NCBI GenBank assembly: GCA_016845225.1
Contig: JAERTB010000014.1
Coordinates: 1 to 32,221 of the forward strand
Length of the DNA: 32,221 nucleotides
Direction of reading: 5' to 3'
DNA from: Candidatus Woesearchaeota archaeon
Lineage (GTDB): Archaea; Nanobdellota; Nanobdellia; SCGC-AAA011-G17; UBA489
This document shows positions 9,823 to 32,221 of the stretch, in pieces (within the stretch, counting starts at the first letter, position 1; every line of letters starts with the position of its first letter). The notes below the pieces were generated by a model. It was given only the letters and a program-made list of their open reading frames with translations. It was not told where the DNA came from and did not search any database. The translations under genes were made by a program, and so were the position numbers.

Positions 9823-10272
9823 TTATTTCTTCTTCTTAGTTACTCCTACACTTCCTGCTTTTCTGAAGTTTCCTTGTGTTCTTTGTCCCCTTACTGGAAG
9901 ACTAAACATGTGACGGATTCCTCTGTAGGATTTTATTTTCTTCATTTTACGAACGTCGAATTCTTTTGTTAATTTTAATGTTGGACCTGTTAAGTGAAGG
10001 TTTTCTCCAGAATCTGGATCATTTTTTCTATTGAATAACCATTTAGGTATTCCTTTTGATTTTGGATCAGCTATTGTAGCTTCGATTTCTTTGATTTTTG
10101 CTTCGTCCAGTGAAACAATTTCATCCTTTTCTTTAATATTTAGAACTTGACAAATTGCTCCTGAGAAAGGTAAGCTAATTCCTTTGATTTTTGATAGCCC
10201 GTAAAGAACACTCTTATTACCAGCTATATCTGTGTTAGCTATTCTAATTAATCTTTTAATCTCATTTGCCAT
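9823..10272 (-). CDS. rps13: 30S ribosomal protein S13 (uS13)
   Basis: IRIANTDIAGNKSVLYGLSKIKGI...SYRGIRHMFSLPVRGQRTQGNFRK. Confidence 0.96.
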   Translation of the reverse strand: MANEIKRLIRIANTDIAGNKSVLYGLSKIKGISLPFSGAICQVLNIKEKDEIVSLDEAKIKEIEATIADPKSKGIPKWLFNRKNDPDSGENLHLTGPTLKLTKEFDVRKMKKIKSYRGIRHMFSLPVRGQRTQGNFRKAGSVGVTKKKK

Positions 10273-12003: not shown

Positions 12004-15000
12004 ATGCATTCAGATCACAAAGTACTTTTTCCAGCGTTTTTGATACTGTTTGCTATGTTTTTATCTTTTAATTATGATTCGTTAGTTAGTTCTGAAGTTA
12101 ATGTTGTTGAAGTTGGTAATAGTTTAACTGGTTATGCTGTGAATAATAATGTTTGTGGAGATAGCGGAGTGTTGGAAATGTATAATATTACTAATTCTCA
12201 TGTTGCTGCTGTTGGCGATGATTCTTCAAATATTGCTTATTGTGCTTCTGTTTCTCAGTCTCTTATTACTAATTCTCCTCTAAGAAATTGTTATACTGAT
12301 TTATCTAATTTGATTGGTTATGCTTCAAGTGGTACAGATATTGGTGCTGAATTTAATTCTCCTAAGGGTGTAAGTGTGTTGATGGATGTTAATGGTTTTA
12401 GTTACGCATATGTTGCAGATACAGGAAATCATTGTATAAGGATTGCAAAGGGGGATGGAAGCGTTGAACATTTTTCTGGGCAATGTACTTTTAGTGGGGT
12501 TGATGATGGAAATGCAAACACTGCTAAATTTAATTCTCCTGAGAGTTTAGTTGAAATGGGAGGAAATTTTTATGTTGCAGATACAGGAAATCATTGTATT
12601 CGTGAGGTTAATGTGAGTACTGGGTCTGTGAGTACTCTTGCCGGTAGTTGTGGAAATAGTGGTTCTGCTGATGGGATGGGTAGTAATGCTAAATTTAATT
12701 CTCCTTCCGGAATAACTACTGATGGTGTTTATCGTTTGTGGGTTTCTGATAATAAATGTGTTAGAGAAATAGATACTACTACTGGTGATGTAACTACTAT
12801 TGTTGGAACTTGTGGAAATAGTGGTTCTGCTCTTGGTGTTGTTGAAGGAATTTCTTATAATTCTGATTCAAATGAAATTTATATTGCTGATAAAGGTAAT
12901 AGTAAAATAAAAAATTATAGTGTTTCTTCAGGCTCAATAAGCAATTATGTTTCTGCAACTAATCCTTCAGGGATGGTTTTTGATTCAGGTTTAAAAATAC
13001 TTTATTTTGCTAGTAGTTCTCAACATAAAATTTGGAAAGTAGATACTGCGTTAACTCCTTCAGCTAGTGTATATGCTGGTTCTGGAACTCTTGGTTTTGT
13101 GGACGGAGCTATTTCAAGTTCTAGATTTGATACTCCTTACGGTATTGGTGTGGATAGTTTCGGAAATTTGTTTGTAGCAGATTCTCAAAATCATGCAATT
13201 AGAGTTGTAGCTCCAACAGCCCCAATAGATGTTTATACTTTGTCTGGAAAGAACGTGCAAGGTTTTTCAGATTTATCTGCAATTACTAATTCTCATTTTT
13301 ATGCATCAAGTGCAACTACAAACATAACCAAGCAAGGAACATATGGTAGAATTTGTTATGATGGTTTGAGTTGTGAATCTAAAGCAACTTGTGATACTTC
13401 TCAGGAATGTATATTTTCATTTAGTGCTGCAACTAATTCTATGGTTGGTGCTTGTGGAGATTATAGTACAGATGTTTGTTGTGAACTTGGTGGAAGTGGA
13501 ACTTATTGTGGCGATGGAACTATTCAGAATCCAAATAGTAATGGTGAATCTGAACAATGTGAATCTGATACTGATTGCGGAACCGGTCAAACTTGTGTAA
13601 ATTGTCAATGTACTGTTCCTGGAAACGATGCTGATGGTGATGGAATTATTGATGATGATGATAATTGTCCAAATCATCCTAATAGTGATACTCTTGGAAC
13701 TTGTGTTGTTGCTGGAACATTTTCAAATCCTGATCCTAATTCGTCACCGATTACTTGTACTACTGATGCGGATTGTAGTGGAAAAAAGATTGGGGCAACA
13801 TTGGTAGAGTATTGTGCAGGCGGAATTGGAAGAAATCAAGATAACAATGATAATCCGTTTGGAACTAACGGAGATAATTGTGGAGATGCATGTGATATTA
13901 ATTCACAAAATGCATGTACTTGTTCTGCTGGAGATGATCTTTGTCCTGGCCCGGATACTTGTTCAGATGCATTAGTTGGTGCTAGCTTTGGATGGGATAG
14001 AATTTCTGCAAACAAAGGAGATTTGACTAAAATAATTCTTGATTTAAATTTTGTTCCAGACTGTGATGGGCAAATATTTGACGTTACTGTTATTGATGCC
14101 GATACTGGTACACCTTCGCTTACAAAACCTAGTCCTATTACAATTATGAATGCTTATGGTGAAACTGAATGGTACGCAGAAAATAATAATCCTGGACAAA
14201 CTCCTGCAGATGTAAAATGGTATGGAGAATCAATTAAAGATTCAATATTGATGAAAACTGGAAATTTAACCGTTAGTGGAGGAACAAGTTATTGTGGTGA
14301 TGGTGCAATTAATGGTGGAGAACAATGTGATGATACTGCTAATCCTATGTTTGGAGATGGAAGTGATACTTGTGAAGATTTTGGTTTAACTGGGGGAGCA
14401 TCTTTAGATTGTATGAATTGTGTAATTGATACTAGTGGTTGTATTGGAGATTCTGGAGTTTGTGGCGATGGAAATATTAATCCTGGAGAAACTTGTGATG
14501 GAACAAATATGTCTGGTTTGACTTGTGAAGATGTAGATGAGTTTACTGGTGGAACTTTGGGATGTTATCCGCCGTCGGATGCAAATGAATGTACCTTGGA
14601 TGTTTCTGGATGTGTTGGAAGTAGTGGTGGTTATTGTGGCGATGGAATTCAAAATATAGATGAAGCATGTGATGATGGTGGAAGATGTGGAACTACTTCT
14701 ACATATTGTACTTCTGATGCTGAGTGTGATACAGATGTTCTTTGTCTTCCTCAAAGCGGAGATGGTTGTGATGATACTTGTAATTTGGAAGATGGTTATG
14801 GTGGTGGAGGCTCGGGCAATTGTAATTCTAATTGTATTTTAGGAAATAAGATGTGTAGTACTAGTGCAAATACACTTTATACTTGTGCAGATTATAGTAA
14901 TCCTCCTGATGGATGTTATGAATGGGGCGTTGGAGAGACTTGTGCTTCTGGAGAAACGTGTAGTCCAGAATTTGATCAGTGTGTCGATAGTGGTTGTAGC

Positions 15001-15282
15001 GTGAAAAATAGTCCTACAATACTTATTCCTAGTTGTAGTGGAGTTAATGAAGATTATGTTTGCGGTAAATGGAGTGATTGTATGAATGGAGAAAAAACAA
15101 GAACATGCTCACAATGTGATACTGGGACCAGTTGTCCATGGCCTACACAAAAGATTAATTGTGAACCAGAACCTTCAGTTAAGGGTTCAGCATTTGATTT
15201 ATTCAGTTGGATGGTTGGATTATTTTTAATTGTTGGATTCTATTTGATTAGAGAAAAGAAAATTAGGATTAGTTTTAATTAA
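12004..15282 (+). CDS. large secreted NHL-repeat and Cys-rich (DUF4215-like/TSP3-like) surface protein with C-terminal TM anchor
   Basis: N-terminal hydrophobic signal, NHL units (YVADTGNHCIR, FVADSQNHAIR), CGDG..N.GE.CDD repeats, DADGDGIIDDDDNCP, C-terminal TM FSWMVGLFLIVGFYLIREKK. Confidence 0.85.
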   Translation: MHSDHKVLFPAFLILFAMFLSFNYDSLVSSEVNVVEVGNSLTGYAVNNNVCGDSGVLEMYNITNSHVAAVGDDSSNIAYCASVSQSLITNSPLRNCYTDLSNLIGYASSGTDIGAEFNSPKGVSVLMDVNGFSYAYVADTGNHCIRIAKGDGSVEHFSGQCTFSGVDDGNANTAKFNSPESLVEMGGNFYVADTGNHCIREVNVSTGSVSTLAGSCGNSGSADGMGSNAKFNSPSGITTDGVYRLWVSDNKCVREIDTTTGDVTTIVGTCGNSGSALGVVEGISYNSDSNEIYIADKGNSKIKNYSVSSGSISNYVSATNPSGMVFDSGLKILYFASSSQHKIWKVDTALTPSASVYAGSGTLGFVDGAISSSRFDTPYGIGVDSFGNLFVADSQNHAIRVVAPTAPIDVYTLSGKNVQGFSDLSAITNSHFYASSATTNITKQGTYGRICYDGLSCESKATCDTSQECIFSFSAATNSMVGACGDYSTDVCCELGGSGTYCGDGTIQNPNSNGESEQCESDTDCGTGQTCVNCQCTVPGNDADGDGIIDDDDNCPNHPNSDTLGTCVVAGTFSNPDPNSSPITCTTDADCSGKKIGATLVEYCAGGIGRNQDNNDNPFGTNGDNCGDACDINSQNACTCSAGDDLCPGPDTCSDALVGASFGWDRISANKGDLTKIILDLNFVPDCDGQIFDVTVIDADTGTPSLTKPSPITIMNAYGETEWYAENNNPGQTPADVKWYGESIKDSILMKTGNLTVSGGTSYCGDGAINGGEQCDDTANPMFGDGSDTCEDFGLTGGASLDCMNCVIDTSGCIGDSGVCGDGNINPGETCDGTNMSGLTCEDVDEFTGGTLGCYPPSDANECTLDVSGCVGSSGGYCGDGIQNIDEACDDGGRCGTTSTYCTSDAECDTDVLCLPQSGDGCDDTCNLEDGYGGGGSGNCNSNCILGNKMCSTSANTLYTCADYSNPPDGCYEWGVGETCASGETCSPEFDQCVDSGCSVKNSPTILIPSCSGVNEDYVCGKWSDCMNGEKTRTCSQCDTGTSCPWPTQKINCEPEPSVKGSAFDLFSWMVGLFLIVGFYLIREKKIRISFN

Positions 15283-28020: not shown

Positions 28021-28329
28021 TTAATCAAATAATTCTATTTCAATATCAACGTCTTTTGGTATTGGAACTCTCATAACTAATCTTAATGCTCTTTCATTGT
28101 CTGCAAGATCAATTAATCTTTTATGAATTCTCATTTCAAAATTATCCCATGTAGCTTTTCCGTCTCCACAAGGACTTTTTCTTGTTGTATGTTTTAGAAT
28201 TTGAGTTGGCAATGGAATTGGTCCAGAAATTTTAGTTTTTGTAGATTTAGCTATATCTGTGATACTTGTACAAATATCATTTATTTGATTAATATCAATT
28301 CCGCTTAAGTTTATTCTTGCTTTTGCCAT
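28021..28329 (-). CDS. rps10: 30S ribosomal protein S10 (uS10)
   Basis: ARINLSGIDINQINDICTSI...ISGPIPLPT...MRIHKRLIDL; follows EF-1A. Confidence 0.95.
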   Translation of the reverse strand: MAKARINLSGIDINQINDICTSITDIAKSTKTKISGPIPLPTQILKHTTRKSPCGDGKATWDNFEMRIHKRLIDLADNERALRLVMRVPIPKDVDIEIELFD

Positions 28330-28401: not shown

Positions 28402-29683
28402 ATTTCTTTTCTTTTAATTCAATACACATTCCTGCAGCTACTGTTGATCCAGCATCTCTGATAGCAAATTTAGACATTTGCGGTATCTCGCCGAATTTTT
28501 CAATAACTACTGGTTTTGTAGGTTTTAACTGTACAACTGCAGCGTCACCAGTCTTTAATGTGTCTGGTTTTTCTTTTAATACTGCTCCTGTAGCAGGATC
28601 TAATTGTTGTGTTAGTTCTGTAAATTGACATGCCACTTGAGATGTGTGGATGTGGAATACAGGTGTATATCCTTGTGTAACCACAGTAGGATGATTTAAA
28701 ATCATAATCCTTGCTGTAAATTCACTAGCAATCTTCGGTGGGTTGCTTGCTTCTCCAAGAACGTCTCCACGTGCAATATCTTTCTTTCCTACTCCTCTAA
28801 CGTTGAAACCAACGTTGTCACCAGGAATAGCTTCTTGTACTTGCTCGTGATGCATTTCAATGGATTTTACTTCCCCTTCTACACCATTACCTTCTCTCCC
28901 AGGTACGAATACTACTTTTTGACCAACTTTTAATTTACCTGTTTCAACTCTTCCTACTGGAACTACTCCGATTCCTGAGATGTTATATACATCTTGTAGA
29001 GGTAGTCTTAAAGGTAAGTCTACTGGTTTTTCTGGTTCGTCAAAGTTATCAATTTGTTCTGCAACTGTAGGTCCTTTGTACCAAGTCATATTTTCTGACT
29101 TTTTGTAAATGTTGTCTCCTTCAAAAGCACTTGCTGGAATGAAGTTTACTTTACTTGGGTCGTAACCTGCTGTTTGAACTAATTTAGTTAATCCTTCTTT
29201 GATTTCATTGTATTTAGCTTCGTCGTATTTTACTACGTCCATTTTGTTAACTAATACACAAAGTTGGTTAACTCCTAGAGTTTTTAACAACCATAAATGT
29301 TCTTTAGTTTGAGGCATTGCTCCTTCATTTGAAGATACAACTAAAAAAGCTACATCTGCTTGTGAAGAACCTGTAATCATGTTCTTAACGAAATCTTTGT
29401 GCCCTGGAGCATCAATGATTGTTGCTTCGTAGTTTTTGGACATGTATTTCTTATATGAAAGGTCGATTGTTACCCCTCTTTCTTGCTCTTCTTTTAAGTT
29501 GTCCATAACGAAAGCGAATTCGAAACCTGCTTTTCCAAGTTCTTGCGCTTTGTCTTTTAACTTTCTCATAGCTTGCTCATCGACGTTTCCTGAGTCAAAC
29601 ATAAGTCTTCCTACTGATGTAGATTTTCCGTGGTCTACGTGACCTACGAAAATTACGTTTAAATGTGGTTTTTCTCTTGCCAT
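28400..29683 (-). CDS. tuf: translation elongation factor EF-1 alpha
   Basis: [46 protein letters not shown]. Confidence 0.97.
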
Positions 29684-29844: not shown

Positions 29845-32221
29845 ATGCAAGAGAAAAAGAGGTTTTCTTTAGTTAGAAATGGAAGAGGTCAGATAGCTAC
29901 TGAACAGATGATGCTTACCGGCATTATTTTGTTGATGCTAATTCCAATTATATTTTATATTACTCAGACTCAAACCCAAACTCCTTACATGACTGATACT
30001 TTAGTTGTGTTGGATAATAGTGTTGAATCTTTGAGTAATCTTGGATCAGGAAGTTCGACAACTGTTGTTGTTCAAGTTCCTACTTCTGTTGTTTCTGCAG
30101 ATTTTGCAGATTGTAATTCTAACGGTGATGTTTGTGGTGCGATCCAAGTTGATTATGCCGATGGTTCTCAAGATGTTTTTGAGATGAGTTATTTTGTGCA
30201 AGGTTCTTTAGATTTCTTAGAAGATCCTGGATTACATTATGTTACTTTGTATCATCAAGATGAAGAACAAAATATTATTTTTCAAGAATGTGGTGACGGA
30301 GTTCAAAGTGGTGGCGAACAATGTGAAGTTTGTACTATTGATGATGATTGTGTAGGTGGAACATGTGATAATGGAATTTGTCAATTTGGTGCAACAACTC
30401 CTTGTCTTTCAAATGCATGTTATGATCCTAGTGACCAGTATGGTTGTTTTTGTCAATGTAGTAATGATAATGAATGTTTAACAAATCTTTGTGAAATTGA
30501 TGCTGGTGCAAGTACTGGGCATTGTTCATTATGTGAAACTAGTGCTGATTGTAATCCTTCTGGAGGGGATGATTATTATTGTGATGCGGGAGTTTGTAAA
30601 AGTTGTGACTATGATGGAGATGGAGAAGAATCTGATTTCTATTGCGGAGGTGTTGATTGTAATGATGATGATGCTTTGATAAATACTGGCGCTACTGAAA
30701 TTTGTACTGGTGGTATTGATGAAAATTGTGATGGTCTTGTTGACTGTTTAGATGGTGCATGTGGTTTTGATCCTGCCTGTAGTGTTGATAAAGAAAATGA
30801 ATGTACTACTGGAAATTGTTGCAGTGATAATCAGGATAATGATGGTGATGGAAATACTGATTGTAATGATAATGATTGTGATTTAGATAGTGCATGTACT
30901 GGCGAATGTAGTGAAGGTCAGGTGTTATGTAGTGGAGTTTGTGTTGATGGAGATACTTGTGGAAATAGTTGTGGTCCTTCTGAGTGTAGTGGCGGTGTAG
31001 CTAATAGTGTGTGTGAAATTGGTGAAAGTTGTTTATGTCCGGATTGTACTGGTCAACAAGATAGTTGTGCAAGTGGATTAACTTGTCAAATTTCCAGTAG
31101 TGGTTGTGATGTTTGTACGGATTGTACTGGAAGCGAAAATAGTAATGCGTTTTGTAGTGATGGGTTAGATAATGATTGTGATGGATTTGTTGATTGTTAT
31201 GATGCAGATTGTTTTGGATTTACTGGAACTAGCGGGATTTGTTGCGTTAGTGGTGGTGATGGAGTTTGTGAAGGTGCACTTAATCAATGTAATACTGCTG
31301 GAACTGGAACAAATTATTTCTTAGATAGTTGTGATAGTAATTGTAATTTACAAACTGGAAATACTTGTGCTTCAAATAGTCTTGGATCAAGTTGCGTAGG
31401 TGATGTTGATTGTGATGGAGGAATTCCTCAAAATTATTGCCCTACTAGTGGAAGTTGGTGCGACTCTGGTTGTGGCGAAATTGATAGAGATAGTTCTCAA
31501 ACTGCTTGTGAAGATTCTGGAGGAAATTGTAATGCTCAAATTTGGTCAAGTTCTTATGTTTGTTGTAATGGAGATGATGGAACTGATAATTGTGCAGTAG
31601 ATAGTGATTGTACTGGTGGATATTTATGTACTGGTTCTTGTCAATGTTCTACTGATTGTAATAACGATAATGAATGTCAATATGGGTACTTTTGTGTAAA
31701 TGGAGAGTGCAGTACTGGTGGTTCTGGTGCTGGATGTACTGATAATTCTGATTGTAGTTCCGGATACACCTGTGATGCAGATTATAATATTTGTGTTGCA
31801 TGTGATGGAAATAGCGTTCAGAATGATCCTGGATCAAATTATGGTTATGGTTTATGTGAAATGGGATATAATGGAGATGGAACTGGAAGTTGTGGTGCAA
31901 ATTCAAATTCCGATGAAAAATCTCCTAGTGCTTGTGTAGGAAATAGTGCTTATGTGGATTCAAGTTGTAATTATTATAGTGATGGAGATTCTAATTTGAA
32001 TACTTGTAATTGTATCGCTGGTGCTGGAAATTATTTTAGCTCTGGTAGTGGACAAGATAAATGTTGCGGAGATGATAGTGGAGAAGATTTTGGCACTGGA
32101 AGTTCAGAAGGTTGGTGTTGTATAAATGGGAATAAATATTCAAGTAATAGTTTGGATAGTACTGGGCAATATCTTTGTTTGAATGGCGCACTTTCCGGAT
32201 GCAATGGAAATTTAGGCGGAG
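29845..32221 (+). CDS. very Cys-rich surface protein with type IV pilin-like class III signal peptide (3' end outside window)
   Basis: Hand translation of frame 1 shows no stop from ATG 29845 to the window end. N-terminus [40 protein letters not shown]. Roughly 95 Cys codons by manual count. Not in the supplied ORF list. Confidence 0.85.

Follow-up and report, generated by a model that had tools for sequence, protein, structure and literature searches.

Modular pilins are already known from bacteria, and large proteins with class III signals are already known from archaea. Bacterial pilins of modular layout carry adhesive modules and, owing to their bulk, have been modelled at the pilus tip; the survey of modular pilins in the paper on PilB and PilC speaks of bacteria only (PMC8179133, PMC9934059). 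Archaeal prepilin peptidases recognize sites with a charged residue at position -2 and G, A or S at -1, to which EppA-type substrates add Q at +1 and E at +5 (PMC4371748), and the text of the 2016 census of archaeal type IV pili (T4P) does not contain the word DPANN (PMC4371748, PMC4858521). Here we describe a Cys-rich protein that is likely to be an archaeal modular minor pilin with an acidic, disulfide-rich adhesive ectodomain, located on the pilus or at its tip.

The window, that is, the whole stretch of DNA analysed here (32221 bp), is the complete contig C14 of an archaeal metagenome-assembled genome (MAG; G000) of ~0.68 Mb and 98% completeness; of its named relatives, the nearest is the 'Candidatus Woesearchaeota' MAG JABIPM010000036. 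An earlier note, made from the sequence alone, had reported an edge-truncated frame of at least 792 codons, and the frame is indeed open from its ATG to the window end (Table 1); because the window is an entire contig and the frame reaches its end, the gene is interrupted by the assembly. The ORF list included no open ends and therefore missed this frame. The Cys content, estimated manually at about 12%, proved accurate (95 Cys in 792 residues, 12.0%, vs 1.5% in the other ORFs of the window), and the quoted N-terminus was an exact match on recheck. Orthologues were identified in four congeneric genomes (G001, G002, G003 and G004), with the G002 protein 75% identical to the window protein over the first ~320 residues. 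The low-complexity G/C/D/S/N composition might hint at a spurious or degenerate frame in Gly/Cys-biased DNA, a reading to which we give practically no credence; it is already refuted by the orthologues with conserved synteny, the dN/dS of 0.15 in the N-terminal module, the Cys residues invariant across seven proteins, and the GC content by codon position (0.47/0.51/0.12, that is, a GC3 of 0.12). The frame is a genuine coding gene cut at the contig end.

Table 1. Features of the Cys-rich pilin gene and its surroundings (window coordinates unless a contig is named)
Feature	Coordinates	Strand	Basis or remark
Cys-rich pilin gene frame	29845-32220	+	792 codons, ATG 29845 to window end
Leader peptide, predicted class III signal, residues 1-15	29845..29889	+	R(-2) G(-1) / Q(+1) E(+5)
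Type IV pilin module, residues 16-148	29890..30288	+	homology to G000:C16 pilin and >60 loci of the order; AF2 model
Disulfide-rich acidic ectodomain (predicted), residues 149-792, truncated by contig end	30289..32220	+	composition
Proximal Cys core, residues 149-320	30289..30804	+	many Cys invariant in seven family proteins (alignment)
DYDGDG motif, residues 255-260, opening a MopE-like stretch	30607..30624	+	motif
20-residue stretch 437-456, resembling acidic double-disulfide repeat NF033662	31153..31212	+	by eye
EF-1alpha, divergent neighbour, synteny marker	28403..29683	-	conserved in four genomes of the genus
102-aa gene downstream of EF-1alpha, synteny marker	28024..28329	-	presumably ribosomal protein S10-like (named by recognition)
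EF-2 of G000	C27:25436-27634		contig ends 915 bp further on

The protein starts with a predicted class III signal, as the earlier note had proposed. Cleavage is predicted after G15 (R14-G15/Q16-I-A-T-E20), with the charged residue at -2, Gly at -1, Gln at +1 and Glu at +5 all in place and a hydrophobic segment behind them (KD 2.42); the part of the protein that is seen contains no second membrane segment. Among the orthologues, the charged -2 residue is absent in L038 and L039, and the acidic +5 residue in L037. A match to the Pfam family PF04021 (Class_IIIsignal) is a helpful rather than a defining sign; the window protein gave none at E 5, the operonic short pilin discussed below had no match over the cut-off, and the homologue L042 passed it. 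The signal assignment is strengthened by the pilin head, whose homology to this operonic pilin is detected without the hydrophobic segment. In a whole-protein search, the window protein matched the 140-aa pilin of the T4P operon on contig C16 of the same genome (E 3e-7), with 26% identity over 101 aa between this pilin and the window module. Even with the hydrophobic segment left out, a profile of operonic-type pilins matched five of the five proteins of the genus (E 7e-8 to 7e-6), and the window module without its TM segment yielded E 3.6e-7, whereas the lowest E among 1000 shuffled sequences was 0.25. Furthermore, the Cys-rich part of the window protein starts at approximately the point where the family's short pilin ends. 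The AF2 model of the module (mean pLDDT 77) consists of a 53-residue helix (14-66) and six beta strands, so the predicted architecture is a long N-terminal helix with a beta-rich head, as in type IV pilins. A Foldseek search of the PDB with this model produced no significant match (best E 0.17), and the claim for the fold therefore relies on sequence homology and predicted topology; a search of PDB sequences with the module profile gave chance matches only and no pilin.

Judged by this homology, the N-terminal ~148 residues are a whole pilin module, beyond a signal peptide, and the C-terminal modules that follow are not specific to pili (LamG and Hint in orthologues), which is the layout of a modular pilin. 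Two statements of the earlier note need revision. Class III signals were said to target normally short pilins, yet bacterial modular pilins and predicted archaeal proteins of >1000 aa are documented (PMC8179133, PMC4371748); and the description of the protein as 'tethered' may be wrong, given that a pilin module implies incorporation into a filament.

No T4P genes were found in the window. The neighbouring pilin peptidase or PilB-like ATPase that the note had named as potential support are both encoded in the genome, on contigs C10 and C16, respectively, and neither adjoins the gene. Besides the 140-aa pilin and other pilin-like proteins, the T4P operon on C16 encodes T2SSE (at 12190), two T2SSF proteins (at 10242 and 11066) and an ATPase of KaiC-like type; a second set of machinery genes is located at C16:74155-77281. 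Peptidase_A24 (PF01478) at C10:37817 is the single detected A24 prepilin peptidase of the genome, from which the peptidase family PF06847 is absent; VKOR, for disulfide formation, is present. A promoter scan, designed for sigma-70, is uninformative for an archaeon. In the mechanism that we envisage, the class III signal would target the precursor and the hydrophobic helix would insert into the membrane; the A24 peptidase would cleave after G15, and the TadA/TadC-type machinery, whose genes lie on a different contig, would add the ~133-residue module to a type IV filament. The ectodomain, with its Cys residues presumably paired in disulfides, would then be displayed on the pilus or at its tip in an adhesive role.

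The gene is divergent from EF-1alpha in G000, G001, G002 and G003, and the G004 contig starts at the gene. This location next to EF-1alpha, unlinked to the pilus operon in this genus, would also suit a membrane-anchored surface protein that retains the pilin-derived N-terminus as an unpolymerised anchor only, the ectodomain serving as a cell coat, receptor or stalk. The degenerate processing sites of some orthologues and the size of the ectodomain, bulky for the body of a filament, point in the same direction. We nevertheless consider such an anchor unlikely because the pilin head, beyond the helix, is under strong constraint, homologues with the same module sit in a pilus operon, and plain anchored Cys-rich surface proteins of these genomes (e.g., that encoded at 12004-15282) use a C-terminal TM segment. 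The protein at 12004-15282 (plus strand) is a secreted protein of 1092 aa with NHL repeats, Cys-rich repeats and the C-terminal TM anchor.

A profile of the module matches 57 of the 103 genomes of the order that were searched, and the 66 near-full matches fall into open frames of <200 aa (24), 200-299 aa (15) and >=300 aa (27, spread over 26 genomes); the frames were counted from one stop codon to the next, and some of them run into the end of a contig. The grafted design is thus common among relatives in the order. In four genomes from four other families (L041, L043, L045 and L046), the extended module is encoded inside the pilus ATPase operon, adjoining a second small pilin, with Ig-like or Cys-rich extensions of ~170-380 aa; in L041, L045 and L046, it adjoins a divergent 'QAAMEFLMTYGWA' major-pilin-like gene. 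Two genomes of the window's own family (G005 and G006) encode Cys-rich homologues of 582 and 525 aa, respectively, that are divergent from a major-pilin-like gene of this kind. In the window's genus, the short pilin occupies the operon slot and the extended paralogue a separate locus. The pilus ATPase of L041 (857-3931, G048) is 1025 aa long, with T2SSE in two stretches, and its apparent LAGLIDADG-type insertion is probably an intein.

The first 89 residues of the window protein contain no Cys, and the density of Cys is high from residue 149. From residue 150 on, Cys, Gly and Asp make up 14.3%, 15.6% and 12.8% of the sequence, respectively, and 108 acidic residues (D+E) face only 6 basic ones (K+R). 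No Pfam or NCBIfam family scored over its cut-off in the window protein. PF11617 exceeds the cut-off in the orthologue L034, whereas the window protein stays below it, and NF033662 is below the cut-off in an orthologue and in the C27 fragment described below. The AF2 model of residues 1-328 has a pLDDT of 56 and is mostly too poor in the Cys part, for which no fold is claimed. A weak teneurin match in the search of PDB sequences was rejected as an effect of Cys composition; a multihaem cytochrome was discarded given 0 CxxCH motifs among the 95 Cys; and two bacterial loci (L035 and L036) were dismissed as relatives, as they match the Cys-rich part only (residues 249-465) and not the pilin module. 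The PilY1 beta-propeller had no Pfam match in the complete orthologues or in the window protein, the C-terminus of which is unseen.

The pilin module is conserved in the compared sequences, and the ectodomain varies in length, modules and sequence. The complete orthologues comprise 519 aa (G003), 948 aa (G004) and ~1360 aa (G001), the whole proteins thus spanning 519-1366 aa. The G001 orthologue combines LamG-like modules with acidic disulfide repeats and a Hint domain, the last with a C-terminal motif of intein type; the G004 orthologue carries one LamG-like module; and LamG lectin-like, acidic disulfide and PKD modules occur in relatives. The Hint/PT-HINT domain of the G001 protein (L037 4320-8393), located with its intein-type motif near the C-terminus, suggests self-processing of a pilus-displayed protein. 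Rates were compared for the pair G000 and G002, which share 97% identity in the EF-1alpha protein. The pilin module shows dN 0.057 and dS 0.37 (dN/dS ~0.15), residues 151-330 show dN 0.25 and dS 0.55 (0.45), and the distal part dN 0.58 and dS 0.74 (~0.8), the last from a shaky alignment with large indels. Because of this alignment, the estimate for the distal ectodomain indicates fast divergence and is not proof of positive selection.

Strongly acidic composition, DxDGDG motifs and the MopE-like match in an orthologue are features that might also be expected of a structural cap or initiation subunit, that is, a minor pilin of the tip complex whose ectodomain binds metal or serves as a scaffold and is not adhesive. 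Such a role appears very improbable to us, since the extreme turnover of distal sequence and modules, and the lectin-like modules of orthologues, suit ligand binding better. An adhesin or contact role of the ectodomain is plausible, and the ectodomain probably makes the pili sticky for other cells. The organism is presumably host-dependent, given its small genome and DPANN kinship. It is conceivable, although we rather doubt it, that the pilus of this DPANN archaeon recognizes hosts through the ectodomain: on a conserved pilin carrier, the disulfide-rich distal part would be swapped and diversified among close relatives to suit different partner cells, acting together with the LamG-bearing major-type pilins of the same genome.

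These pilins include at least four further large proteins of G000, encoded on C2 and C27, in which a different, major-pilin-type N-terminus precedes LamG modules; grafting onto pilins therefore seems to be a general device here. The tandem proteins of 576-650 aa on C2 (L073 6575-10289) and C27 (L074 3550-7400), in which LamG modules follow a closely similar major-pilin-like N-terminus of the KKGQSALEFIMTYGWALVV type, look like recently duplicated modular pilins, and a further copy is cut by the end of C2.

A candidate for the missing C-terminus was found on the same contig C27. EF-2 lies on the 3' side of the gene in G001 and G004, and in G000 the contig with EF-2 breaks off within a Cys-rich frame (281 aa, minus strand) facing EF-2. 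This fragment is probably the remainder of the window gene, judging by its orientation, its composition and an acid_disulf repeat shared with the G002 orthologue. It is a candidate only, because no overlap was found between C14 and C27, the similarity to the C-terminus of the G003 protein is not significant (E 0.11), and other genes occupy the interval between the orthologue and EF-2 in G003. If the fragment belongs to the window gene, the protein comprises at least 1073 aa. A repeated 'TNAHA...CC' domain is common to the fragment, the protein encoded at 12004-15282 and the family's other surface proteins of Cys-rich type. The assemblies of G000 (window position 32221, the end of C14) and of its nearest relative G002 (end of G002:C6, L034 5976) both break inside the distal ectodomain, which may reflect strain variation in this region.

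How small host-dependent archaea recognize their partners is largely an open question, and pilins in such genomes are often unannotated. The module described here is a carrier defined by sequence, with C-terminal extensions from nothing to >1200 residues, and it points to a list of candidate contact proteins, the expression of which needs no culture of the organism. In a literature search covering few subscription journals and preprints, we found no paper on pilin-Cys-rich fusions in Woesearchaeota.

Among described systems, several resemble parts of this protein. The TIGR02232, NF033662 and PF11617/MopE-like proteins share its short repeats rich in Cys and Asp, matched in orthologues; these families name modules of the ectodomain only, and the window protein remains below their cut-offs. 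The PilC/PilY1 tip adhesins of diderm type IV pili offer a parallel as tip effectors of great size and modular build whose adhesive modules can be exchanged, but they lack a pilin module of their own, and their beta-propeller carrier domain was not found in the window protein. Archaeal FlaFind positives, bindosome subunits and predicted T4P adhesins share the pilin-type signal and span <150 to >1000 aa; the large FlaFind positives, some of them Cys-rich and near T4P loci, have been predicted to be adhesins or minor pilins (PMC4371748, PMC4858521). The window protein belongs to a different family, with a pilin head shown by homology, and, unlike it, the bindosome proteins are not pilin-derived. 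PilB and PilC of Streptococcus sanguinis share with it a class III signal, a small pilin module and one or more large C-terminal modules grafted through a linker (PMC8179133, PMC9934059); modules of the LamG/ConA-like lectin and Ig-like types are found repeatedly both among bacterial modular pilins and in this archaeal family. PilB and PilC are bacterial proteins of ~50 kDa with one or two folded modules (vWA or lectin), whereas the window protein is archaeal and carries a predicted disulfide-rich ectodomain of >640 aa. The grafted-pilin principle would thus extend to archaea, with a disulfide-rich cargo.
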